DNA of 64,000 nt, from contig RDXY01000005.1 in the NCBI GenBank assembly GCA_004293045.1, positions 1 through 64,000 on the forward strand, written 5' to 3'. The translations under genes were made by a program, and so were the position numbers. Below, one piece after another: positions 6,187 to 19,792 of this stretch; position 1 is the first letter of the stretch; each line of letters starts with the position of its first letter. The stretch comes from Flavobacteriia bacterium (GTDB taxonomy: Bacteria > Bacteroidota > Bacteroidia > Flavobacteriales > Flavobacteriaceae). The notes below the pieces were generated by a model. It saw nothing but the letters and a program-made list of their open reading frames with translations, had not been told where the DNA came from and made no database searches.

Positions 6187-6223
6187 AAATCCAAATTCCG
6201 AAATCATTTCGAAATTTGGATTT
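6187..6223. terminator. Hairpin terminator between convergent genes
   Basis: AAATCCAAATT and the matching AAATTTGGATTT flank an inner CGAAAT/ATTTCG stem. The arms have a roughly 7-base rhythm like other tracts in this window. It serves both the saccharopine dehydrogenase gene and the convergent peptidase gene. Confidence 0.6.
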
Positions 6224-6244
6224 ACTATTTTAGATTTATAAGAA

Positions 6245-6934
6245 TTAATCTCTAGTCGCGCCCATATATCGCATTATATAATATAATAACGTTGCTATTG
6301 AACCTAATGCGGCAACTAAATAGGTTCTGGCAGCCCATTTTAATGAATCTTCTGCGCCAGCATATTCTTCTTGACCCAACATATTTTTGTTTTTCAACCA
6401 AGCCAAAGCACGATTACTTGCATCATATTCTACAGGTAACGTAATTATAGAAAAAATAGTAGTGGCAGCAAATAAAATTATTCCGATTAGTAACAAAGAA
6501 GGAAATGTGTTTAACATTAGAATGCCTGCTAATAAAACCCATTGCATATAATTTGAAGCAATTTCCACAACAGGCACTAGTTTGGAACGCATCGTAAGCC
6601 ATTCGTAAGCCTGAGCATGTTGCACGGCATGACCCACTTCATGAGCGGCTACCGCTGCTGCTGCTGCATTTCGTTGGTTATAAACGGCCTCTGACAAATT
6701 TACGGTTTTATCAGTAGGGTTGTAATGATCCGTTAATCTTCCAGAAGTAGAAATGACTTTTACATCACGAATCCCATGATCAGCAAGCATTTTTTCTGCA
6801 ATTTCTGCACCAGACATCCCATTTCTTAGGGTAAGTTTAGAGTAATGTTCAAATTTTGATTTTAATCTATTTGAAACCAACCAGCTAAAAAGCATAATTA
6901 CTCCACCAATTATCATTGAACCTGTATCAAACAT
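6245..6934 (-). CDS. Neutral zinc metallopeptidase (YugP family)
   Basis: The 229-residue membrane protein has an N-terminal helix (MIIGGVIMLFSWLVSN), the zincin motif AAHEVGHAVQH near residue 95 (HEVGH fits HExxH), and two further helices toward the C-terminus. This is the organisation of the YugP/DUF1751 'zinc metallopeptidase' family. The substrate is not known, but membrane protein quality control is often assumed. Length is normal. A possible -7 element (TAACTTTG, minus strand, 6986-6993) lies about 50 bases upstream. The gene appears to stand alone. Confidence 0.88.
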   Translation of the reverse strand: MFDTGSMIIGGVIMLFSWLVSNRLKSKFEHYSKLTLRNGMSGAEIAEKMLADHGIRDVKVISTSGRLTDHYNPTDKTVNLSEAVYNQRNAAAAAVAAHEVGHAVQHAQAYEWLTMRSKLVPVVEIASNYMQWVLLAGILMLNTFPSLLLIGIILFAATTIFSIITLPVEYDASNRALAWLKNKNMLGQEEYAGAEDSLKWAARTYLVAALGSIATLLYYIMRYMGATRD

Positions 6935-7105
6935 ATTTTTAATTTTAAAAATTTAAAGTTACTAAATAAATATCAAATTATGAGCCAAAGTTAAAAAATG
7001 ACAAGTTGTCAATATTAATTTATTATTTATTTGATGAAACCAAATATTATTACAATAAATAAAAAGATTCAATTTGTATTATCCACTAAATTCAATTAGA
7101 ATGTC

Positions 7106-7774
7106 TTAAAATACTATACCTAATACAAATCGATTATTATTTCTTTCATTAATTGAATTTGCTATATTTCCGTAATCAGACTTCCATTTCCCATTGGAGA
7201 AAGCCAATTCATAGGCGCAATTTAATCTGAATTTATAAAATTTATCTTTAAATAGATAAATAGATAAAGAAGGTCCTGCATAAAACATTTGATTTCTTAT
7301 TGATAGTAATCCGCCATTTGTATTGGGGTTTAAATTATTAAAATCAATGGTATTATTTTTAGAATACAAATCTACTTCTGAAGAGGTTCCTGCTAAACTT
7401 AACCCAGAAGTAAATGCAAAATTAGTCTTATTTATCAGGTTATAATGAAAGCGAATACGTCCCGTAAAATGCATATTCTTATTCTTTGATGTTGTATTCT
7501 CTTTTTTATTTTCTCCAAATCCAAATTCAAAATCTGAAGAATATTTTTTACCAAAAACATTAAAGCCAAAAACAAATTCTGCCGGACTGTTATCTAAAAG
7601 TACAACATTTGATGCTTGTAAATTTCTATTAAGATTTAAATTGTCTTGAATATTCGCATTAACTCCAATATAAAAAGAAGCATCAACATTACTTTTGTTT
7701 TTTATTTCATTTTTTTCTTGAGCGGTTCCAAGTTGAAAAGCAACGAAAAAAGTGGCAAGTATAATTTTTCTCAT
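7106..7774 (-). CDS. Outer-membrane beta-barrel protein, function unknown
   Basis: The 222-residue protein has a signal peptide (MRKIILATFFVAFQLGTAQ, cut after A-Q) and then alternating hydrophobic/polar strands ending in an aromatic, YELAFSNGKW...RFVLGIVF, the pattern of a small porin-like barrel. No enzyme motif is seen. It lies between the metallopeptidase and leuS genes on the same strand, but gaps of over 80 bases on each side give no strong operon sign. I do not recognise a specific family. Confidence 0.6.
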   Translation of the reverse strand: MRKIILATFFVAFQLGTAQEKNEIKNKSNVDASFYIGVNANIQDNLNLNRNLQASNVVLLDNSPAEFVFGFNVFGKKYSSDFEFGFGENKKENTTSKNKNMHFTGRIRFHYNLINKTNFAFTSGLSLAGTSSEVDLYSKNNTIDFNNLNPNTNGGLLSIRNQMFYAGPSLSIYLFKDKFYKFRLNCAYELAFSNGKWKSDYGNIANSINERNNNRFVLGIVF

Positions 7775-7854
7775 TTTATTAAAAAATTTAATGTTATTAC
7801 TACAAAATTAAAATCAGGACAACTAAAATCTATTAATAATTTGTTAAAATAACT

Positions 7855-10731
7855 TTACCCCACCAAATTAATAATTTTGCCTGGAACTATAATCACTTTA
7901 TTTGGTGTTCTTCCTTGTAATTGCGCATGTGTGCGTTCATCTGCCATTACGATTTCTTCAATTTGAGCGGCTGTTAAGTCTAACGGTAACTTAATTGTAA
8001 ATCGCATTTTTCCATTGAATGAAACCGGATATTCTTTTTCAGATTCAACCAAATATTTTTCTTCAAATTTTGGAAAAGCAACTGTTGCAATCGAATCTTC
8101 GTGACCTAAAGCACTCCATAATTCTTCTGCAATATGCGGTGCATATGGTGAAACTAAAATGGCTAAAGGCTCTAAAATAGCTCGATGGTTGCATTTTAAT
8201 TGTTGCAATTCGTTCACGCAAATCATGAATTGAGAAACCGAGGTGTTGAAGGAAAAATTCTCAATGTCTTCGGTTACTTTTTTAATGGTTTTATGTAACG
8301 ACTTATACATTTCTGCCGTAGGTTCATCGTTTATTATAACCGAACCGTTGTCATCAAAATACAAACGCCATAATTTTTTCAAGAATCCGGAAACACCAGT
8401 AATTCCTGCCGTGTTCCAAGGTTTAGATTGCTCTAAAGGCCCTAAAAACATTTCGTACAAACGCAGTGTATCAGCTCCGTATTCTTCACAAATATCATCT
8501 GGTGAAACAACATTATACTTTGATTTCGACATTTTTTCGACTTCTCGACCAACAATGTATTTGCCCTCTTCTAAAACGAATTCGGCATTAGCATAATCAG
8601 CATATAAAGGATGTGCTTTGAATTTTTCTATATTTAATTCGTTCGTAATATCATTGATACAAGATAAATCAACGTGAATTGATTGAACATTTTTATCTTT
8701 TATCAAACCTCTTGAGAACAAAGTTTTTGAATCTTCACTTCTATACACAAAAGCACTCATCCCCAAAATCATTCCCTGATTGATTAGTTTTTTAAATGGT
8801 TCTTCAGTAGGAGCATAACCCCTATCTTTTAAGAATTTATTCCAAAAACGAGCATACAATAAATGTCCCGTAGCGTGTTCGCTTCCGCCAATGTATAAAT
8901 CTACGCTTTCCCAATATTTAAGCGTTTCTTCATTAGCAAAATCTTCTGTATTATGCGCATCCATATAACGCATCCAATACCAAGAAGAGCCTGCCCAACC
9001 TGGCATCGTGTTCAATTCTAACGGGAAAACGTTTACATTATCTATCAACTCACAACTCACAACTTGCGACTTTTCAACGTCCCAAGCCCAAACCGTTGCG
9101 TTTCCTAATGGCGGTTGCCCGTCTTCTGTTGGCAAGTATTTTTCTACTTCTGGTAAAACAATGGGTAAGTGTTTTTTGTCAATCATTTGTGGCAAGCCAT
9201 TCACATAATATACAGGAAAAGGTTCGCCCCAATAACGTTGGCGAGAAAAAACGGCATCCCGTAAGCGGTAATTTATTTTGGCATTTCCTGCACCTAACTC
9301 TTCTAATGCTTCGATGGCTTTTTTCGTTCCGTTTTTGTAATCTAATCCGTTTAAGAAATCAGAATTTACCAATTCGAATCCCCCTTTTTCACCATAAGCG
9401 GCTTCTGAAATATCTTGGTTGAAAATATTTTTTATTTCTGGCATTCCGGACGTTCCTTTGAAGAAATTCGCGAAAGCATAATCACGCTCATCGCCACAAG
9501 GAACGGCCATAACAGCACCTGTTCCGTAACCCGCCAACACATAATCGCCAATCCAAATTGGAATGGGTTCTTTTGTGAAAGGATGTTCGGCATACGCTCC
9601 AGAAAATACGCCTGAAATCGTTTTTACATCAGCCATTCTTTCGCGTTCTGAACGTTTTGCAGTGGCTTCCACATAAGCTTCCACAACAGCTTTTTGTTCT
9701 GGGGTGGTAATTTCTTTCACCAATTCGTGTTCGGGTGCCAATGTCATAAAAGTTACTCCAAAGATTGTATCAGGTCTGGTCGTAAATACTTCAACTTGAA
9801 ACTTGGAACCTAAAACTTGAAACCTAACTGTAGCTCCGACAGATTTTCCAATCCAATTGCGTTGTGATTCTTTGATAGATTCACTCCAATCGATGTCGTT
9901 TAAACCTTGTAATAATCGCTCTGCATAGGCAGAAATTCGCATACTCCATTGGGTCATTTTCTTACGAACAACTGGATGTCCACCACGTTCGGAAACGCCG
10001 TTTACAATTTCGTCATTTGCTAAAACGGTTCCTAAAGCGGCACACCAATTGACTTCGGTTTCGGCTAAATAGGTTAATCTATATTGTAATAAGATTTTTT
10101 GTTGTTGTTCGGATGAAAATGAGTTCCATTCGGTTGCTGAAAAAGGTGCGATATTTTCATCACAAACGGCATTAACTTGCGTGTTTCCATTTTTCTCAAA
10201 TTCTTGTAGTAACGTACAAATGCTTTCTGCTTTATCTGAATTTTTATTGTACCAGGATTCAAATAATTGTATGAAAATCCACTGTGTATGTTTGTAATAG
10301 TCTGGATTTGACGTACGAACTTCTCTGCTCCAATCGAAAGAAAACCCAATTCTGTCTAATTGATTTCTATATCCTTGAATTACATTTCCTGATTTATCGA
10401 CACCACCTTCAATATTCATTCGAGTTGTATCTGCAGGATGTTGCCCAGTTTGAATGGCATATTGTTCTGCAGGTAAACCAAAGGAATCGTACCCTTGCGG
10501 ATGCAATACATTAAAACCTTGATGTCTTTTATAACGCGCTACAATATCCGAAGCAATATACCCTAGCGGATGCCCCACGTGCAAACCTGCTCCCGATGGA
10601 TAAGGAAACATATCTAATACATAGTATTTAGGTAACGGGTTTTGGGCATTGAGTTCTTGGGCTTTAAACGTTTGGTTTTTTGCCCAATAGTGTTGCCATT
10701 TGGCTTCTATTTTTTCGTGGAAATATTTCAT
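7855..10731 (-). CDS. leuS: Leucyl-tRNA synthetase
   Basis: The 958-residue class I synthetase charges tRNA-Leu. The HIGH-type motif is PYPSGAGLHVGHPLGY near residue 45, the CP1 editing domain includes VFTTRPDTIFGVTF near 315, and the KMSKS loop EKMSKSKYNVVSPDD lies near 735. WYWMRYMD and GSEHATGHLLYARFW are also intact. The start MKYFHEKIEAKWQHYW is canonical. Two stretches of coding DNA are odd: residues about 301-312 and 551-562 are encoded by degenerate 7-base tandem repeats like those found between genes here. Both keep the frame and fall in loops. A -7 element (TAAATTTG) lies about 60 bases upstream. Confidence 0.97.
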   Translation of the reverse strand: MKYFHEKIEAKWQHYWAKNQTFKAQELNAQNPLPKYYVLDMFPYPSGAGLHVGHPLGYIASDIVARYKRHQGFNVLHPQGYDSFGLPAEQYAIQTGQHPADTTRMNIEGGVDKSGNVIQGYRNQLDRIGFSFDWSREVRTSNPDYYKHTQWIFIQLFESWYNKNSDKAESICTLLQEFEKNGNTQVNAVCDENIAPFSATEWNSFSSEQQQKILLQYRLTYLAETEVNWCAALGTVLANDEIVNGVSERGGHPVVRKKMTQWSMRISAYAERLLQGLNDIDWSESIKESQRNWIGKSVGATVRFQVLGSKFQVEVFTTRPDTIFGVTFMTLAPEHELVKEITTPEQKAVVEAYVEATAKRSERERMADVKTISGVFSGAYAEHPFTKEPIPIWIGDYVLAGYGTGAVMAVPCGDERDYAFANFFKGTSGMPEIKNIFNQDISEAAYGEKGGFELVNSDFLNGLDYKNGTKKAIEALEELGAGNAKINYRLRDAVFSRQRYWGEPFPVYYVNGLPQMIDKKHLPIVLPEVEKYLPTEDGQPPLGNATVWAWDVEKSQVVSCELIDNVNVFPLELNTMPGWAGSSWYWMRYMDAHNTEDFANEETLKYWESVDLYIGGSEHATGHLLYARFWNKFLKDRGYAPTEEPFKKLINQGMILGMSAFVYRSEDSKTLFSRGLIKDKNVQSIHVDLSCINDITNELNIEKFKAHPLYADYANAEFVLEEGKYIVGREVEKMSKSKYNVVSPDDICEEYGADTLRLYEMFLGPLEQSKPWNTAGITGVSGFLKKLWRLYFDDNGSVIINDEPTAEMYKSLHKTIKKVTEDIENFSFNTSVSQFMICVNELQQLKCNHRAILEPLAILVSPYAPHIAEELWSALGHEDSIATVAFPKFEEKYLVESEKEYPVSFNGKMRFTIKLPLDLTAAQIEEIVMADERTHAQLQGRTPNKVIIVPGKIINLVG
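9045..9079. repeat. Heptamer tract inside leuS (first)
   Basis: On the plus strand the units are TCAACTC, ACAACTC, ACAACTT, GCGACTT and TTCAACG, in exact 7-base register. It encodes part of a poorly conserved loop of LeuS. Confidence 0.75.
9795..9829. repeat. Heptamer tract inside leuS (second)
   Basis: Units CTTGAAA, CTTGGAA, CCTAAAA, CTTGAAA and CCTAACT follow each other in 7-base register. They encode FQVLGSKFQV in the editing domain, just ahead of the conserved FTTRPD. Confidence 0.8.
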
Positions 10732-10758
10732 TTCTATTTTCTATAGTCTATTTTCAGA
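10732..10758. repeat. Heptamer tract upstream of leuS
   Basis: Units TTTCTAT, TTTCTAT, AGTCTAT, TTTCAGA run directly from the leuS start codon into its leader. Confidence 0.7.
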
Positions 10759-10792
10759 TTTACATTCTCGGGTTTAACCGAAAAATAAGGTG

Positions 10793-10800
10793 CAAATTTA
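10793..10800 (-). promoter_or_regulatory. -7 element for leuS (TAAATTTG)
   Basis: TAAATTTG on the minus strand fits TAnnTTTG and lies about 60 bases from the leuS start. No clear -33 box. Confidence 0.4.
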
Positions 10801-10889
10801 CATTTTTATATACTAATGTTAAAACTTTGTTGTTATATTCTATGTAAACAAAATTTCTTTACTATTTTTACACCATAATTAGTAAACTT

Positions 10890-11765
10890 ATGGCACAATC
10901 ATTTGAACAATATCAACGTAGAAGATTAATTTCTTCTTATTTTTCAGTAGTTTTTAGTATTTTTTTAGTGCTGTTTTTATTAGGCGCTTTAGGATTATTT
11001 GTAATTAATTCTGAAAAAATTTCAAACGATTTTAAAGAAAACATTCCTATGACTGTCTATTTTAAAGACGAGGCGAATGATACGATTCTAAATGCCTTTG
11101 ATACTGAATTGAAAAATTCAAAATTTATTAAATCGTATGATTTTGTAACCAAAGCGGAAGCGGCTAAAAACAATCCGGATATAGTAGGTAAAGATTTTAT
11201 GGAGTTTTTAGGATTTAATCCGTTACAGAATTCTTTTGATATTCATTTAAAAAGTGATTATGTAACCAAAGAAGAAATTAAAAAAATAGAAAATAATTTT
11301 AAAAGAAATGGCAATATTTCTGACATCATTTACGATAAAGAATTGGTAGAATTGGTTAACGAAAATGTATCTGAAATTAGCTTTTGGATTTTAATTATTA
11401 GTGCGGTTTTAACTTTTGTAGCGATGTTGTTAATTAATGGCTCTATTCGTTTGTCGGTTTATTCACATCGATTTACCATAAAAACGATGCAAATGGTTGG
11501 AGCTACAAAAACATTTATCAGAAAACCTTTTATAAAAACAAGTATTTTATTAGGAATAATTGGTGCAGTGTTGGCGATTATTGGTTTGGTATTTTTAGCA
11601 TTTTACATTGATGGTTTATTTCCAACTTTAGGCATTGCAAAAGATTATGCAGCTATAGCCATTGTGGCTTTTGGTGTATTGTTAATAGGTATTATTATTA
11701 CTTGGTTGAGTACCTATTTTGCAACTACTCGTTTCTTAAATTTAAGAACCGACGATTTGTACTAG
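10890..11765 (+). CDS. ftsX: Cell-division permease FtsX
   Basis: The 291-residue protein has the FtsX plan: a cytoplasmic N-terminus, a first helix (SVVFSIFLVLFLLGALGLF), a periplasmic domain of about 130 residues, then three C-terminal helices around VLTFVAMLLINGSIRLSVYSHR and ILLGIIGAVLAIIGLVFLAF. With FtsE it forms an ABC-type complex that controls septal peptidoglycan hydrolases. No ftsE is present nearby, which is usual in Bacteroidota. It leads a run of genes (DUF3098, uppP, truB) on the same strand with short gaps, consistent with an envelope/translation operon. Confidence 0.93.
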   Translation: MAQSFEQYQRRRLISSYFSVVFSIFLVLFLLGALGLFVINSEKISNDFKENIPMTVYFKDEANDTILNAFDTELKNSKFIKSYDFVTKAEAAKNNPDIVGKDFMEFLGFNPLQNSFDIHLKSDYVTKEEIKKIENNFKRNGNISDIIYDKELVELVNENVSEISFWILIISAVLTFVAMLLINGSIRLSVYSHRFTIKTMQMVGATKTFIRKPFIKTSILLGIIGAVLAIIGLVFLAFYIDGLFPTLGIAKDYAAIAIVAFGVLLIGIIITWLSTYFATTRFLNLRTDDLY

Positions 11766-11768
11766 TCT

Positions 11769-11800
11769 AGTGAAAAGGGAATAGTAATTAGTGAATAGCA
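11769..11800. repeat. Heptamer tract between ftsX and the DUF3098 gene
   Basis: Units AGTGAAA, AGGGAAT, AGTAATT, AGTGAAT, AGCA lie in 7-base register just after the ftsX stop. Confidence 0.6.
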
Positions 11801-11816
11801 TTTTTATAAAAACATT

Positions 11817-12062
11817 ATGAAAGAAAACTCAAAAAAGCCCGAATTTTTATTCAGTGCTACCAATTATAAAATATTAATTATAGGATTAGTTGTGATTGCT
11901 TTAGGATTCATATTAATGAGTGGTGGAGCCAATGAGAATCCAAATGTATTTAATGAAGACGTATATAGCTTCAGAAGAATAAGATTAGCGCCAACAGTGG
12001 TGTTAATCGGTTTTGGAATTACAATTTATTCGATTTTAAAGAAGTCGAAATCTGAAAATTAA
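11817..12062 (+). CDS. DUF3098 small membrane protein
   Basis: The 81-residue protein has two predicted helices, ILIIGLVVIALGFILMSGG and LAPTVVLIGFGITIYSI, joined by a polar loop containing ENPNVFNEDVYSFRRI. This fits DUF3098, a short Bacteroidota family of unknown role that commonly sits between ftsX and uppP. Its position here follows that pattern. No further motif is visible. It may assist envelope assembly, but that is only inferred from its neighbours. Confidence 0.85.
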   Translation: MKENSKKPEFLFSATNYKILIIGLVVIALGFILMSGGANENPNVFNEDVYSFRRIRLAPTVVLIGFGITIYSILKKSKSEN

Positions 12063-12071
12063 TTTATATTT

Positions 12072-12119
12072 TTTAGATTCTGTGTTTCTAAGAATCTAAG
12101 AATCTAAAAGTCTAAAAAA
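12072..12119. repeat. Octamer tract with inverted arm before uppP
   Basis: CTAAGAAT, CTAAGAAT, CTAAAAGT, CTAAAAAA run in 8-base register up to the uppP start. TTAGATTCT at 12073 is the inverse of AGAATCTAA, so the leader RNA can fold into a hairpin. Confidence 0.6.
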
Positions 12120-12928
12120 TGGATGTATTTCAAGCTATAATCATTGCCATTATTGAAGGTATTACAGAATATTTACCGGTTTCTTCAACAGGTCATATGA
12201 TTTTTGCCAGTTCTTACTTCGGAATTGAAAAAGAAGAATTTGTAAAATTATTTCAGGTTTCTATACAATTTGGTGCCATTTTAGCAGTTGTAGTTTTATA
12301 TTGGAAAAAGTTTTTTGATTTTTCGAAACTACAATTTTTTATAAAATTAGCTTGTGCGGTTGTACCAGCTTTAATTTTAGGAAAATTATTTGATGATAAA
12401 ATAGAAGCCGTTTTAGAACATCCTACTCCTATCGCGATGGTACTAATTATCGGAGGAATAATTTTACTGTTTGTAGATAGATTTTTCAAAAATCCAACCA
12501 TTCATAAAGAAGAAGATATTACCATAAAAAAAGCAGTTACTATTGGCTTTTGGCAATGTTTAGCTATGATGCCAGGCACAAGCAGAAGTGCGGCAAGTAT
12601 CATTGGAGGGATGCAACAGGGGTTAAGTCGTCAAGCGGCTGCAGAATTTTCTTTCTTTTTAGCCGTGCCAACAATGTTAGCAGTTACTTGTTACTCGGTG
12701 TTTTTGAAAACGTATGATAAAAGTGGTTTAAAAGGTTTTGAGTTAATTTTGAAAACAGAAGACAATACTAAAATGTTTATAATTGGAAATTTAGTTGCCT
12801 TTGTGGTAGCGGTTTTAGCTATTAAATTTTTCATTGAAATCATAAAAAAATACGGATTTAAACCTTGGGGTTGGTACAGAATTATCGCAGGAATACTCTT
12901 ATTAGCTTACTTTAATTTATTCAAATAA
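12119..12928 (+). CDS. uppP: Undecaprenyl-diphosphatase
   Basis: The 269-residue, eight-helix membrane enzyme removes a phosphate from undecaprenyl diphosphate, recycling the lipid carrier for peptidoglycan and other surface polymers. The two family signatures are intact: EGITEYLPVSSTGHMIF near residue 14 (catalytic Glu region) and PGTSRSAASIIGGM near residue 152. Length is typical for BacA/UppP. Its stop overlaps the truB start by one base (TAATG), which predicts translational coupling. A short octamer repeat tract fills the leader. Confidence 0.96.
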   Translation: MDVFQAIIIAIIEGITEYLPVSSTGHMIFASSYFGIEKEEFVKLFQVSIQFGAILAVVVLYWKKFFDFSKLQFFIKLACAVVPALILGKLFDDKIEAVLEHPTPIAMVLIIGGIILLFVDRFFKNPTIHKEEDITIKKAVTIGFWQCLAMMPGTSRSAASIIGGMQQGLSRQAAAEFSFFLAVPTMLAVTCYSVFLKTYDKSGLKGFELILKTEDNTKMFIIGNLVAFVVAVLAIKFFIEIIKKYGFKPWGWYRIIAGILLLAYFNLFK

Positions 12929-13632
12929 TGAAAGCAGAAGACTACCAAGAAGGACAAATTTTACTAATTGATAAACCACTTAAATGGTCGTCTTTTCAAG
13001 CCGTAAATAAATTAAAATTTGGCTTAATAAAGGAATTAAAATTACCCAAAAAATTCAAAATTGGTCACGCCGGAACTTTAGATCCATTGGCTTCGGGATT
13101 ATTGCTAATTTGTACCGGAAAATTCACAAAAAGAATAGAAGAATTGCAAGGTCAAGCTAAAGAATATATTGGAACTATTACGGTTGGCTCCACAACACCT
13201 TCATACGATTTAGAAACAGAAATTAACGCCACGTTTCCAACAGAACATATTACAGAAGCTTTAATTAACGAAACGTTACCGCAATTTATAGGTGAAATAG
13301 ATCAAAAACCTCCTGTTTTTTCAGCCATTAAAAAAGACGGAAAAAGGTTGTACGAATCCGCTCGTGCTGGTATAGAAGTGGAAATAAAAACCAGAAAAGT
13401 ATCAGTTTCTGAATTTGAAATTACCAGAATTGCCTTACCCGAAATAGATTTCAGAATTGTATGTAGTAAAGGAACGTACATTCGCTCCATCGCATACGAT
13501 TTTGGTTTGGCTCTTAATTCTGGAGGCCATTTAACGGCACTTCGTAGAACAAAAATCGGTGAGTATTCAGTTGAAAATGCTACGGAACCAGAGGCTTTTA
13601 TTGAAGGATTACAACAATCTCCTTCATCGTAG
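12928..13632 (+). CDS. truB: tRNA pseudouridine-55 synthase
   Basis: The 234-residue enzyme converts U55 to pseudouridine in the T-loop of tRNAs. The catalytic Asp lies in GHAGTLDPLASGLL, KPPVFSAIKKDGKRLYESAR carries the conserved substrate-binding stretch, and CSKGTYIRSIAYDFG is motif III. It begins at the overlapping TAATG after uppP. The 3' end overlaps the convergent thioredoxin-like gene by about 35 bases, so the last codons of each gene are antisense to the other. Confidence 0.96.
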   Translation: MKAEDYQEGQILLIDKPLKWSSFQAVNKLKFGLIKELKLPKKFKIGHAGTLDPLASGLLLICTGKFTKRIEELQGQAKEYIGTITVGSTTPSYDLETEINATFPTEHITEALINETLPQFIGEIDQKPPVFSAIKKDGKRLYESARAGIEVEIKTRKVSVSEFEITRIALPEIDFRIVCSKGTYIRSIAYDFGLALNSGGHLTALRRTKIGEYSVENATEPEAFIEGLQQSPSS

Positions 13633-15119: not shown

Positions 15120-15683
15120 ATGACAGAAGAAATTAACTTTATTATGGATAGCGCAAAAGAATCTATGAATGGATCGGTAGCGCATTTAGAAAAAGAATTT
15201 TTAAACATTAGAGCAGGAAAAGCTTCTCCGCAAATGTTAGGTAGTGTTTTTGTAGATTATTATGGGGCACAAACGGCATTGGCTCAAGTGGCAAATGTTG
15301 TAGCTGCAGACGCAAGAACTTTAACCGTAACGCCTTGGGAAAAAGCCATGTTACAGCCTATTGAAAAAGCGATTATGATTGCTAATTTAGGATTAAACCC
15401 GATGAATAATGGGGATAATATTATCATTAGTATTCCCGCTTTAACAGAAGACAGAAGACGCGAATTAGTAAAACAAGCCAAAGCAGAAGCAGAAGATGCC
15501 AAAGTAGGTATCAGAAACGCCAGAAAAGACGCCAATAGCGACATTAAAAAAGAAGAAAAAAACGGTACATCTGAAGACATCTGTAAAATTGCGGAGGATT
15601 CCGTACAAAAACTAACAGATGCTTTTATTAAGAAAATCGATGAGGTTTTCACAGCTAAAGAAGCTGAAATTATGAAAGTATAG
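15120..15683 (+). CDS. frr: Ribosome recycling factor
   Basis: The 187-residue tRNA-shaped protein splits post-termination ribosomes together with EF-G. Family landmarks are FLNIRAGKASPQMLGSVFVDYYG near residue 27, LTVTPWEKAMLQPIEKAI near 65, and the helical hinge PALTEDRRRELVKQAK near 105, all intact (each quoted only in part here). It completes the pyrH-frr pair. A GC-containing terminator hairpin lies 34 bases after the stop, preceded by a short heptamer tract. Confidence 0.97.
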   Translation: MTEEINFIMDSAKESMNGSVAHLEKEFLNIRAGKASPQMLGSVFVDYYGAQTALAQVANVVAADARTLTVTPWEKAMLQPIEKAIMIANLGLNPMNNGDNIIISIPALTEDRRRELVKQAKAEAEDAKVGIRNARKDANSDIKKEEKNGTSEDICKIAEDSVQKLTDAFIKKIDEVFTAKEAEIMKV

Positions 15684-15693
15684 GTTTTGTTTT

Positions 15694-15720
15694 AGAAAAT
15701 AGAGAATAGAAAATAGAAAA
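15694..15720. repeat. Heptamer tract downstream of frr
   Basis: Units AGAAAAT, AGAGAAT, AGAAAAT, AGAAAAC in 7-base register between frr and its terminator. Confidence 0.65.
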
Positions 15721-15754
15721 CCCTGCAAATAATTTAATTCGCAGGGTTTTTTGT
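15717..15754. terminator. Terminator after frr
   Basis: AAAACCCTGC and GCAGGGTTTT pair around an AT-rich loop, followed by TTTT. It lies between frr and the convergent small membrane-protein cluster. Confidence 0.8.
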
Positions 15755-15762
15755 GTTTTTGA

Positions 15763-15897
15763 TTATTTTTTGTCTAAATATTTCATTAGTTTTTTATATA
15801 ATTTAACAATAGCGATAACTATAATTATCAATATAATAAACATGAGAGTTTGTAATAAAAATAAACCTAAACTAAATTCATTAAAAATTTTTCCCAT
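15763..15897 (-). CDS. Small single-helix membrane protein (44 residues)
   Basis: This frame is too short for the ORF track. It reads MGKIFNEFSLGLFLLQTLMF, then a strongly hydrophobic helix IILIIIVIAIV and a basic tail KLYKKLMKYLDKK, ending in TAA. The tail matches that of the 56-residue protein at 16049-16219 (KLYRKITKYLDKK), so the two are paralogues. It is the last of four small membrane-protein genes downstream of a large lipoprotein gene on the same strand, with gaps of only 15-140 bases. Function is unknown. The paralogy, start codons and shared layout make a real gene more likely than chance. Confidence 0.6.
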   Translation of the reverse strand: MGKIFNEFSLGLFLLQTLMFIILIIIVIAIVKLYKKLMKYLDKK

Positions 15898-15913
15898 AAG
15901 AAAATATTGAAAT

Positions 15914-16033
15914 TTAGGATTTTTTATAAAATTTTATTAAAATTTTAATTAAATATAAGATTGCAATAATAATAAACACATACATAACAACTCTTATTGC
16001 ACCAGTTGTCGAAAAAAATAAAAATGACTTCAT
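15914..16033 (-). CDS. Small single-helix membrane protein (39 residues)
   Basis: The frame reads MKSFLFFSTTGAIRVVMYV, one long hydrophobic helix FIIIAILYLIKILI and a basic end KFYKKS. It is not in the ORF track. It follows the 56-residue gene by 15 bases and precedes the 44-residue gene by 16, on the same strand. The architecture (short N-terminus, one helix, lysine-rich tail) is shared by all members of the cluster, though sequence identity to the other two is weaker. No signal peptidase site is seen, so a membrane-anchored peptide is the simplest reading. Function unknown. Confidence 0.5.
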   Translation of the reverse strand: MKSFLFFSTTGAIRVVMYVFIIIAILYLIKILIKFYKKS

Positions 16034-16048
16034 AACTATTAAATTAAT

Positions 16049-16219
16049 CTAAACATCATTCTTCTTATCTAAATATTTTGTAATTTTTCTGTAAAGTTTA
16101 ATTATATAATATATCACCACAATTAAGAGAATAATATTAATTATAGGTATTAATATTCCTAATAAATAATGAAAATAATACGAAATAGTCTCTGGATGCT
16201 GTACTTTAATTTCTTTCAT
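16049..16219 (-). CDS. Small single-helix membrane protein (56 residues)
   Basis: Not in the ORF track. It reads MKEIKVQHPETISYYFHYL, a helix LGILIPIINIILLIVVIYYI, and the tail KLYRKITKYLDKKNDV. The tail matches the 44-residue paralogue closely. The start codon lies three bases after the stop of an orphan C-terminal tip (16223-16333), and ATGAAAGAAATT mirrors ATGAAAGACATT of the 58-residue gene, which follows the full lipoprotein in the same way. That repeated junction supports both starts. The protein is probably a partner or immunity-like factor for the tip-bearing lipoprotein, but this is inference. Confidence 0.6.
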   Translation of the reverse strand: MKEIKVQHPETISYYFHYLLGILIPIINIILLIVVIYYIIKLYRKITKYLDKKNDV

Positions 16220-16222
16220 AAT

Positions 16223-16333
16223 CTAATATTGAATTGTTGCATAAATTGAACCATTGTTTTTAAGAAATTTAATCTGAAAATGTTCTGATGCTGAAAATAC
16301 AGTGCCAATCCCTTCAAAGATAATATTGAATAG
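16223..16333 (-). pseudogene. Orphan C-terminal tip of the large lipoprotein family
   Basis: An open frame of 36 residues without a start codon reads NIIFEGIGTVFSASEHFQ, then IKFLKNNGSIYATIQY and TAG. It resembles the end of the 571-residue lipoprotein encoded just upstream, which has IKFLINKSNGTL near its own stop. A stop codon precedes the fragment in frame, so only the extreme C-terminal end of a second copy remains. It is followed after three bases by the 56-residue membrane-protein gene. The similarity is short, but position, frame and downstream junction agree. Confidence 0.5.
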
Positions 16334-16358
16334 CTAGGAAAATTTAATGTTTTTAAAA

Positions 16359-16535
16359 TCATATTTTTTTATTCTCATTATTTTTTTCAAGCTCCTCTAT
16401 TTTTAGTTTATAATATTTTTTTTTAATAAAAATATAATTTCTAACTAGGAAATAAAAAGTTACAATTAAATATAATAAGCCCAATAAAATAATTGTTGGT
16501 ATAAAATAACTAAAGGTTTCAAAAATGTCTTTCAT
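16359..16535 (-). CDS. Small single-helix membrane protein (58 residues)
   Basis: The ORF track gives 73 residues from 16580, but that start lies inside the lipoprotein gene. The downstream ATG at 16535, four bases after the lipoprotein stop, gives MKDIFETFSYFIPTIILLG, a helix LLYLIVTFYFLV and a charged tail FIKKKYYKLKIEELEKNNEN. It has the same layout as the other small proteins of the cluster, although its tail is longer and mixed in charge. Tight spacing after the lipoprotein gene predicts co-translation. Function unknown; a dedicated partner of the lipoprotein is the best guess. Confidence 0.6.
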   Translation of the reverse strand: MKDIFETFSYFIPTIILLGLLYLIVTFYFLVRNYIFIKKKYYKLKIEELEKNNENKKI

Positions 16536-16539
16536 AATA

Positions 16540-18255
16540 TTAATCAAGATTAGTAGTAACAGAACAACATAATGTGCCATTACTTTTGTTTATTAAAAAT
16601 TTTATCTTTTTTCTATTCTTAAAACCAAATTCAAATTCTTCGTACTTAATTCCGATATTAAGATACCCTGTCAATGTGATTTGTGCTTCATTGCTACTAT
16701 AGTTTTGATTTGTCATACTCATTGTTGTTTGCACCCAAGTGTTACCAGGTAAAAACCCATCTAAATATGAATTACTTTGATTATCTAATGTTATATTTGA
16801 ACCTTTGTTGGCAACTACTTCAACAATAATTGTATGTGTTGAACTTATTCTTATTTTCTTTGTTGAAAAAAATTGATTTTGCGTTTCTAAATTAGAAACA
16901 TCGGCGCCATCTCCTTGCGATCCGTTATTTAATGACTGAACAAAAGTGTTTAATTCTGTAATGGAATTAAAATTCATTAAATTTTGATTACTATTTGAAT
17001 TAGAAAAACTATGATAATCAAAGTTTATATTGTTTTCAGATGCAATATCAATTAATCCGTCAAGTTTTTCAATTTTTTCTAAACTTGTCAAATTTTGTAA
17101 TATACTTTGCTTTGTTGTTGCACTCTGTCCCGATAACCATTCACCATGTTGAAGTAAAAACTGAAAAGCATTATATTGAAACAAAGAAATTTGAGCTTGG
17201 GTATTTATTGTATCAGGATATTGATAAAAAACACTTGGCATATTATTAAAAGCATACGTTAAAGCATTTTGATTTGAACTACTCAATCCACCATTAACAC
17301 CAATCCAATAATTTGTATACGCTAAAAGCCATTCTGTGGATTCAACTACATTTTTAATAGCATTGTCAGAGGCATATAAATTATAAATAAATTGATTTAT
17401 CTGAAGCATATTTTGAGTAGCAGGATTGCTTAAATCATCACTATTAAAATAATTAGGTATAAATATGTCTGTATTTGAACTATTTTCACCGCCACCACCA
17501 AGACCATTATTTTCATTTCCAGATGATGGATTAGATGGGTTTTGATGGTTATTCATCCATTCCAGCACATCTGGTATAAAATCTTCGCCTCCACTAGTAG
17601 AACAATCGCTTGCAAGAACTTTAAAAACAAGAACTTTTCTTCTACTACCATCATTATTAAAACATTCTGGATTTTCACCAGGAGTAGTAAGTTCTCCCTC
17701 GCAATAATCTACTTCTTCGTAATACCCAACTTCAAGACATCCACTCGTATTGGTTACATTAGATGAAGAACTATTGAGCCTTGCAGTTGAAGTGCTAGTG
17801 ATTGAGTTCATAAACATGTCATTATTGCTAATTTGTCCTAAATGTTTGTTTAAATAATAAGTTACTAAGTACGTTTGAGGACTCTGATTTGGCTTACAAT
17901 CAATTACAATATTTTGTGAAAAAGTAGCAGTAGCTGATTGTAAAACACGAAAAGAAAAAGTTTCTTGGTTGTTAGTTTTTTTTAAGTATTGAATATTTTG
18001 TAAATCTATATCAAAATCGGAAATAGATTCAATACTATTATGTTTATCAGCAGGTAAAACTTTTTTAAGTTTAGCTGATTCAATAAATGCTTGATTGTTG
18101 ATGTTTCTCAATTCTTGAAAATTAATCTTTTTAAAGCGGTAATCTCTCGTGTCTATATTTAAATTTTCATCATAAGCATCTTTACTACAACTAAATGTAA
18201 ATAGCACAGTTACTAAAAGTAGGATGTTTTTCAATTTTTGTTTGGGGTTTTTCAT
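16540..18255 (-). CDS. Large lipoprotein with hinge and separate C-terminal domain
   Basis: The 571-residue product has a lipoprotein signal peptide with lipobox FTFSC (Cys23) followed by SKDAYDE, whose acidic residues could be a surface-export signal. An N-terminal region of about 150 residues (YRFKKINFQELRNINNQAF) is followed by a four-Cys segment (SGCLEVGYYEEVDYC, then PEC and SDC), a Gly-rich hinge NGLGGGGENSS, a helical domain, and a beta-rich tip ending IKFLINKSNGTLCCSVTTNLD. I recall a large flavobacterial family with a shared N-terminus, GGG hinge and varied C-termini. The layout resembles polymorphic effectors but no toxin motif is seen. Four small membrane-protein genes and an orphan tip follow. 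Confidence 0.6.
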   Translation of the reverse strand: MKNPKQKLKNILLLVTVLFTFSCSKDAYDENLNIDTRDYRFKKINFQELRNINNQAFIESAKLKKVLPADKHNSIESISDFDIDLQNIQYLKKTNNQETFSFRVLQSATATFSQNIVIDCKPNQSPQTYLVTYYLNKHLGQISNNDMFMNSITSTSTARLNSSSSNVTNTSGCLEVGYYEEVDYCEGELTTPGENPECFNNDGSRRKVLVFKVLASDCSTSGGEDFIPDVLEWMNNHQNPSNPSSGNENNGLGGGGENSSNTDIFIPNYFNSDDLSNPATQNMLQINQFIYNLYASDNAIKNVVESTEWLLAYTNYWIGVNGGLSSSNQNALTYAFNNMPSVFYQYPDTINTQAQISLFQYNAFQFLLQHGEWLSGQSATTKQSILQNLTSLEKIEKLDGLIDIASENNINFDYHSFSNSNSNQNLMNFNSITELNTFVQSLNNGSQGDGADVSNLETQNQFFSTKKIRISSTHTIIVEVVANKGSNITLDNQSNSYLDGFLPGNTWVQTTMSMTNQNYSSNEAQITLTGYLNIGIKYEEFEFGFKNRKKIKFLINKSNGTLCCSVTTNLD

Positions 18256-18775: not shown

Positions 18776-19792
18776 TTATTTCATTTTCCCAACCAACGCT
18801 TTCAAATACACCTTCATATCTAAAAACTCAAAATCAATAGCGGTTTTAATTTTATTTGTATCGTGAGTTTCTAAATTATATAATGCGTTTATGGTAGCTT
18901 TTGTTAACATTCTTTTTCTAAAAAATAGCTTCGCCAAAACAAACTCAAAGATTCGAAGGATTTGCAATTGCCACTTCTTTATTTCAAATTTTGGTTTTTT
19001 TATTTTGTTAGCTGAGGTGCTCGATGCCAAACTATCTGCAATACTATCAAATAATTCTTTGTAAGTTACATCTTCGGCAACTAAAATAAAGCGTTCGCCA
19101 GAAATTGTGCTTTTCATTAGAGCTGTCATTGCTTTTACGACATCTTCTACAGCTACAATTCCAAGTTTACCATGCGTATAAAATAATTGTCCGTCTTTAA
19201 TATTTTTGATAAATAAAGAACTGCCTTCTGTTGGAAATCCGTTCCCGAAAATCACACCTGGATTGACAATTACCACTTCCAATCCTTCTTGAAACCCACG
19301 CCAAACTTCCATTTCTGCGCCAAATTTTGAAATAGAATAATCGCTTCTTACAGCTTCGTTGTTTCTTTCAGTTTCTTCATTTATCAATAAATTATGTTCC
19401 GTTCCGTTTCCTAAAGCCGAAATTGAACTTACATAGCACAATTTTTTTACATCAGAAGATAAGCAACAATTCACCACATTTGCGGTTCCTACCATGTTAT
19501 TTTGATAGAGTTTTTCTTCATCTTTTGGATTAAAAGAAACCAACGCCGCACAATGATATACATAAGAAATGTTAGTAAAAGCAGTTTCAAGAGCAGGAAT
19601 ATCTAAAATATCGGCTTTAACCCAATCTATTTTTTCAAAATTAGTAAGTTTGTTTTCTTTTTTAAATAATTGTTTAATGAGTTGTAGTTTTTTCTCCGAT
19701 CTATATATTGCTCGAATGGCATTCTCTTCTTGAGAAAGTTGCAATAATAAATGAAAACCAACTAAACCTGTTCCGCCTGTAATTAATATCAT
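18776..19792 (-). CDS. NAD(P)-dependent epimerase/dehydratase family protein
   Basis: The 338-residue protein is an extended short-chain dehydrogenase. It starts MILITGGTGLVGFHLLLQL (GxxGxxG cofactor motif), has a YVSSISALG strand, and the catalytic YSISKFGAE (YxxxK) near residue 150, then VNPGVIFGNG. It resembles dihydroflavonol reductase-like or 3-beta-HSD-like proteins, and the substrate cannot be told from the sequence. Upstream lies the divergent asnS gene, downstream the decayed regulator gene. No operon partner is evident. Confidence 0.85.
   Translation of the reverse strand: MILITGGTGLVGFHLLLQLSQEENAIRAIYRSEKKLQLIKQLFKKENKLTNFEKIDWVKADILDIPALETAFTNISYVYHCAALVSFNPKDEEKLYQNNMVGTANVVNCCLSSDVKKLCYVSSISALGNGTEHNLLINEETERNNEAVRSDYSISKFGAEMEVWRGFQEGLEVVIVNPGVIFGNGFPTEGSSLFIKNIKDGQLFYTHGKLGIVAVEDVVKAMTALMKSTISGERFILVAEDVTYKELFDSIADSLASSTSANKIKKPKFEIKKWQLQILRIFEFVLAKLFFRKRMLTKATINALYNLETHDTNKIKTAIDFEFLDMKVYLKALVGKMK

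Follow-up and report, generated by a model that had tools for sequence, protein, structure and literature searches.

The 64,000-nucleotide window analyzed here (contig RDXY01000005.1 of a Flavobacteriia bacterium) very probably contains a polymorphic toxin locus, in which an exchangeable lipoprotein-borne tip and its cognate small transmembrane (TM) immunity gene are swapped together. Since it combines a tip and adjoining small gene with the stump of an old tip and three left-over small genes, the locus has the look of an inter-bacterial weapon with a warhead and antidote that are replaced as a unit. On the minus strand, the carrier lipoprotein is followed in order by a 58-aa gene, an orphan frame, ORFs of 56, 39 and 44 aa and a terminator. 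The features are:

16540..18255, minus strand: carrier lipoprotein with exchangeable C-terminal tip (571 aa; ORF with lipobox Cys23, then SKDAYDE)
17735..18186, minus strand: carrier N-terminal domain, ~residues 24-174 (profile A3)
17020..17040, minus strand: predicted exchange point (hinge), ~residue 409 (end of homology to L034/L035, and L034/L035 divergence)
16543..17052, minus strand: C-terminal tip domain, last 170 residues, FGxKxRK...CC-ending subtype (same tip on other carriers)
16359..16535, minus strand: 58-aa single-TM gene, class A, probable cognate immunity gene (4 nt past the carrier stop; tracks the tip)
16223..16333, minus strand: orphan tip stump, 36 codons plus stop, start codon absent (tip HMM; best match L098)
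16049..16219, minus strand: 56-aa single-TM gene, class B, probable orphan immunity gene (3 nt past the orphan stop; class B matches)
15914..16033, minus strand: 39-aa single-TM ORF, possible degraded orphan immunity gene (weak small-gene similarity)
15763..15897, minus strand: 44-aa single-TM gene, class C, probable orphan immunity gene (matches L085b, L080 and L073b)
15717..15750, minus strand: intrinsic terminator ending the array, common to the convergent frr (14-pair stem)

An earlier note on this DNA had drawn attention to a repeated junction, and its coordinates were confirmed on the minus strand. The carrier stop (16540-16542) is followed after a 4-nt gap by ATGAAAGACATT (58 aa, 16359-16535), and the orphan frame, ending in IKFLKNNGSIYATIQY with its stop at 16223-16225, is followed after a 3-nt gap by ATGAAAGAAATT (56 aa, 16049-16219). 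The 39-aa and 44-aa TM genes and the terminator are extra parts of the array that the note did not contain. All four small ORFs in the window are short and carry a single strongly hydrophobic stretch each. The earlier interpretation as a whole largely holds, with the amendments given below.

The carrier and its relatives form a modular mosaic. In a search of 400 Flavobacterium genomes, relatives of the window lipoprotein matched its N part alone or its tip alone: L034 and L035 match only over residues 11-409/437 of the window carrier (53-54%), while tip-only relatives were found in G474, G304 and G400:C27 and as detached tip frames of 43-63 codons. Across a sample of ~800 genomes of Flavobacterium and its family, in which 34 tip hits in Flavobacteriaceae were examined, the tip was found on varied carriers, with the window tip subtype recurring on other carriers in G474, G304 and G400. 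The carrier N-domain is common to 25 aligned proteins with differing tips, in all of which the lipid Cys23 is invariant (profile A3), and it has strong matches in Flavobacteriaceae, where it is common, and in a second family of the order; one genome contains as many as seven copies. Among the other tips on this carrier are Tox-MPTase3 (4e-16), AHH nuclease and Tae4 amidase (1.3e-18) domains, all known from polymorphic toxins and T6SS effectors, and SprT-like and DUF6973 domains were further found at carrier C-termini. Phage pressure can diversify surface lipoproteins in general, and the window protein could be a plain surface lipoprotein that diversifies as an antigen or phage receptor, beside functionally unrelated small genes; this is extremely unlikely, as it would leave unexplained both the co-exchange of the small genes and the occurrence of peptidase, nuclease and amidase tips on one carrier.

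Breakpoints between carrier and tip are directly visible in other genomes. Two Flavobacterium genomes (L034 in G494 and L035 in G400) carry related loci at a common frr/pyrH site; over 5.1 kb their identity is 96.5%, with 29-30 of 30 bases per block matching up to carrier codon ~415 and background similarity from codon ~418 onwards. Beyond this point, L034 continues into a Tox-MPTase3 tip and L035 into an unrelated one, and the downstream genes are unrelated too. The core homology of the window carrier to both proteins stops at residue 409-437. In G585, a main tip gene with a 52-aa TM gene is followed downstream by an orphan tip with its own 52-aa TM gene; the two cassettes have 108 nt in common (98%) at the 5' hinge and 79 nt in common (96%) at the small-gene 3' end, and the intervening tips differ. 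G585 is a case of cassettes exchanged with homology at their flanks. The junction is thus a breakpoint elsewhere, as the earlier note had anticipated, both in the split of L034 and L035 at codon ~418 and in the G585 cassettes. Downstream of L035 lies an array with a stray AHH-class immunity gene and a second carrier with its own genes; this array in Flavobacterium fryxellicola (L035, oriented, 6221-13501) is long and also contains tip fragments and several immunity-like genes, and its second carrier has no evident signal peptide.

The orphan frame of the window is open over 16226-16333 only (36 codons) and lacks its own start; it sets in ~25 nt past the stop of the 58-aa gene. A tip HMM was built from ~29 tips of other genomes, with the window sequence left out, and was run against all 1,669 stop-to-stop segments of ≥20 residues in the window. 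The resident tip ranked first (93 bits) and the orphan second of the 1,669 (19.6 bits, E 6e-5), with 7.8 bits for the third-ranked segment; all 20,000 shuffled versions of the orphan scored below the real one. Pairwise, the orphan was nearest to the tip subtype of L098, L080, L100 and L084 (z 9.6-11.4; 0/500 shuffles as good). The best of these matches, L098, comes from G585, where it too is an orphan tip; the TM gene behind it is similar to the class to which the window 56-aa gene belongs. The resemblance to the lipoprotein end proposed in the earlier note therefore holds for the tips of other carriers (E 6e-5; z 9.6-11.4) and not for the resident end, to which pairwise similarity was weak (z 2.1, matched by 22 of 500 shuffles); the contrary outcome that the note had named, an orphan unlike any lipoprotein tip, is at odds with this significant similarity. 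Because it is significant against the tip HMM and near to L098, L080, L100 and L084 while far from the resident tip, the orphan is, judged by these similarities, the truncated remains of a tip that belonged to another subtype. A simple copy of the resident tip was rejected as its identity (z only 2.1). The idea of a complete stored tip/immunity pair had to be abandoned, with a truncated stump of other subtype in its place and the other small genes tip-less. At a further orphan cassette in Flavobacterium fryxellicola (L122:5150-5180), the small gene behind an orphan tip lacks the start codon kept in an intact relative, and therefore both halves of that cassette look decayed.

The small genes are linked to the tip. 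A TM ORF of ≤80 aa lies within 80 nt behind the tip in 26 of the 34 tip hits and behind none of the 24 proteins that join this carrier to another tip; in nearly all of those 24, a different ORF of 110-242 aa directly follows. Over 22 carrier-borne pairs, small-gene similarity was correlated with tip similarity (Mantel 0.73; 0.68-0.73 over analyses), also with the carrier removed (partial Mantel 0.72; 0/10,000 permutations as good), whereas the partial correlation between small gene and carrier with the tip removed was -0.12. Small-gene type goes with the tip and not with the carrier, which bears out the earlier proposal that the small gene travels with the tip. Among the 34 hits, an adjacent small TM gene was absent in six that are not orphan fragments (L101, L105, L107, L108, L109 and L119), and two orphan tip fragments have lost theirs. 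Behind the distant tips L101, L105, L108 and L119, an ORF of 146-165 aa directly follows instead, hinting at a second kind of partner; L101 and L105 have a TM gene ~500 nt further on, and two tips among the six exceptions have neither a small TM gene nor a 146-165 aa ORF.

Each small gene of the window has its own relatives. The 58-aa gene is nearest to small genes behind tips of the same subtype (L073, L086, L071 and L030; z 9.6-12) and is a probable, putative cognate immunity gene. The 56-aa gene matches class B small genes (L087, L078, L085c and L074; z 13.6-20.8) and the 44-aa gene matches L085b, L080 and L073b (z 18-19), making both putative and probable orphan immunity genes; the 39-aa ORF is only weakly similar to other small genes (best z 7.2). 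Over its last 45 nt, the 44-aa gene matches the 3' end of the 56-aa gene at 73% identity. Such common 3' ends, together with the repeated tip/small-gene layout, could also have arisen by tandem duplication and decay of one lipoprotein-tail/small-gene unit with no exchange between strains. This is very unlikely, as the orphan subtype differs from the resident tip, the small genes belong to different classes that are each common to other species, and the breakpoint between L034 and L035 is sharp.

Two other roles for the small TM genes were weighed. As accessory factors for this tip type (a membrane anchor, export helper or chaperone) they would be expected directly behind the tip, strictly tip-type specific and with a single TM, as observed. 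Yet unrelated genes occupy that position behind same-carrier proteins with other tips, and tip-less copies persist beside other carriers (a class C gene behind the Tox-MPTase3 carrier L034, and the 56-, 39- and 44-aa genes of the window); because small genes persist without tips, left-over immunity fits better, and an accessory role is unlikely. Their size and hydrophobicity also recall membrane-acting peptides, and they could themselves be hydrophobic toxins (type I toxin-like peptides) next to a lipoprotein unrelated to antagonism; the tight co-variation of small genes with tip subtype and the known antibacterial toxin domains on the carrier family leave this scarcely any probability. Immunity remains the preferred function of the small genes.

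No recognizable fold or catalytic motif was found in the tip by Pfam or PDB sequence searches, and a structure model from 4 sequences was poor (pLDDT 43), which made the fold search with it uninformative. Since the putative cognate immunity protein is a single-TM protein, the tip is suggested to act at or from the inner membrane, and its activity is probably membrane-directed. For the carrier, the residues after the lipid Cys are rich in K, D and E, with CSKDAYDE in the window and C-E/S-K-D-x-Y-D/E in many carriers. The Bacteroidetes surface-export signal (LES) has the form X-K-(D/E)2-X in C. canimorsus and SDDFE in F. johnsoniae (PMC5080379), which the window carrier matches partially, with one acidic residue at +4 rather than two. 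Surface display of the carrier is likely, though putative, because SKDAYDE resembles this signal but with one key acidic residue instead of two.

The proposed mechanism is as follows. The carrier would be lipidated and probably exposed at the surface, its last ~170 residues forming an exchangeable antibacterial tip, and the small TM gene behind the tip would encode its cognate immunity protein, probably located in the inner membrane, shielding the producer and its kin. A new tip with its immunity gene would be spliced onto the carrier by recombination at the hinge near residue 409 (homologous recombination in G585 at least), and the older pair would be displaced downstream. The displaced tip, having lost its start, would decay to a stump, and the displaced small gene, keeping its own start, would stay as orphan immunity. 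The mosaic of modules, the breakpoints, the homology flanking the cassettes, the tip specificity of the small genes and the orphan stump are seen in the sequences themselves. From the stump we infer the order of insertion in the window; we likewise infer toxicity and a membrane target for the tip, immunity for the small genes, and contact-based surface delivery.

The locus is very probably a lipoprotein-borne polymorphic toxin system with orphan cassettes that parallels CDI/Rhs systems without being one of them. Relatives have a conserved N part with non-homologous C-terminal toxin domains, a specific directly downstream gene co-varies with the tip, and stand-alone or orphan tip cassettes lie near main genes (the window orphan, L098, L080, L086 and L089). 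CDI/Rhs loci likewise have a C-terminal toxin that can be exchanged and, behind it, a specific immunity gene, as well as start-less orphan tip fragments that keep their downstream immunity genes, and hinge recombination, and CDI orphan CT/immunity arrays behave likewise in experiments (PMC3150448). In contrast to them, the carrier here is a lipoprotein of ~450-720 aa, where they have a TPS exoprotein or Rhs shell; the neighboring genes examined include none of CdiB/Rhs type, there is no VENN or DPxGL hinge, and the putative immunity protein is a single-TM protein of 37-76 aa. Pfam/NCBIfam scans and the sequence itself gave no TPS domain, hemagglutinin repeats or VENN in the 571-aa lipoprotein, there is no CdiB partner among the neighboring ORFs, and a Pfam scan gave no YD/RHS repeats in the lipoprotein. 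MafB/MafI of Neisseria resembles the locus in lipid-linked surface presentation and C-terminal polymorphism (PMC3482391), but MafB-N occurs in Neisseria only and has a separate lipoprotein, MafA, as its partner; the carrier has no Pfam/NCBIfam match to MafB-N, and no second lipoprotein gene is listed among the ORFs beside it. The CdiA/Rhs/MafB-like displacement put forward in the earlier note accordingly applies to the way of working and not to membership, the defining parts being absent.

SitA/SitI of Myxococcus, as described, are polymorphic lipoprotein toxins with a conserved N-terminal escort domain, a variable C-terminus and an immunity gene (PMC8546572), but differ by description in delivery through TraAB outer-membrane exchange in myxobacteria, nuclease C-termini and phylum. 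TANFOR proteins of Bacteroidetes are also polymorphic toxins with downstream immunity genes, but they are large and T9SS-linked (PMC7073777), and Pfam/NCBIfam scans gave no TANFOR match in the lipoprotein. The lipobox and cystatin-like polymorphic toxins of the Lipocone paper have a lipobox, a small N-domain, assorted C-terminal toxins and linked immunity genes, with tips of other families (Min-Wnt, CapCone-1, ColM-like, START, papain-like and VanY-like; PMC12419801). The modeled carrier N-domain has a beta-alpha-alpha-beta4 order compatible with a cystatin-like fold, at a core pLDDT of 70-83 that is only partly confident and with no PDB match at E≤0.001; going by this model, the carrier may belong to these systems. 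Otherwise, the carrier N-domain, tip and small genes had no match above the Pfam/NCBIfam cut-off (Pfam, NCBIfam, PHROGs and PADLOC gave sub-threshold noise), a PDB sequence search with the carrier returned weak, chance-level matches only, and scans of genome contigs and viral contigs with the full lipoprotein found no relatives. There is no sign of phage or plasmid carriage, since phage and plasmid tblastn gave no match.

More tentatively, the locus could exemplify a kin-discrimination system that is carried on lipoproteins, has no name as yet and is widespread in Flavobacteriaceae and a second family of the order. In such a system, a new family of ~170-residue, beta-rich tips would kill via the inner membrane, be neutralized by immunity proteins among the smallest known (37-76 aa, one TM helix) and be swapped as cassettes, with no dedicated secretion machine at the locus; no secretion genes were seen beside the window locus. 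To our knowledge, contact-dependent antagonism is less well described in Flavobacteriaceae than in Proteobacteria and gut Bacteroidales, and no description of the tip/small-gene family was found in the open-access literature, most subscription papers lying outside the search. The analysis yields a recognizable carrier domain, a tip family and an immunity family, all without a curated Pfam/NCBIfam match, and a clean natural record of cassette exchange. It also makes toxin delivery by surface lipoproteins directly testable and offers very small putative membrane immunity proteins for specificity mapping.

The ORFs neighboring the window array are frr, pyrH, an epimerase gene and asnS. Seven relatives (G209, G211, G212, G218, G220, G222 and G223) have frr followed by asnS within ~1.5-5.6 kb, with no tip match and no significant carrier match (one weak match, E 0.06, in G222); because of these, the window array is taken to be an addition at a conserved place. 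The NAD-dependent epimerase-like gene (18776-19792), between the array and asnS, was not found there in the relatives examined. In G494, G400 and G207, arrays lie directly behind frr in the orientation opposite to that of the window, with duplicated frr 3' fragments further on. The window array (15120-18255) adjoins frr as in G494 and G400, but reversed, and is convergent with it. Fragments of the frr 3' end were located past toxin arrays in three genomes (L034, oriented, 6782; L035, oriented, 7712 and 13693; L153, G207:C1:459875-460072), as though duplication or integration had repeatedly taken place at frr.
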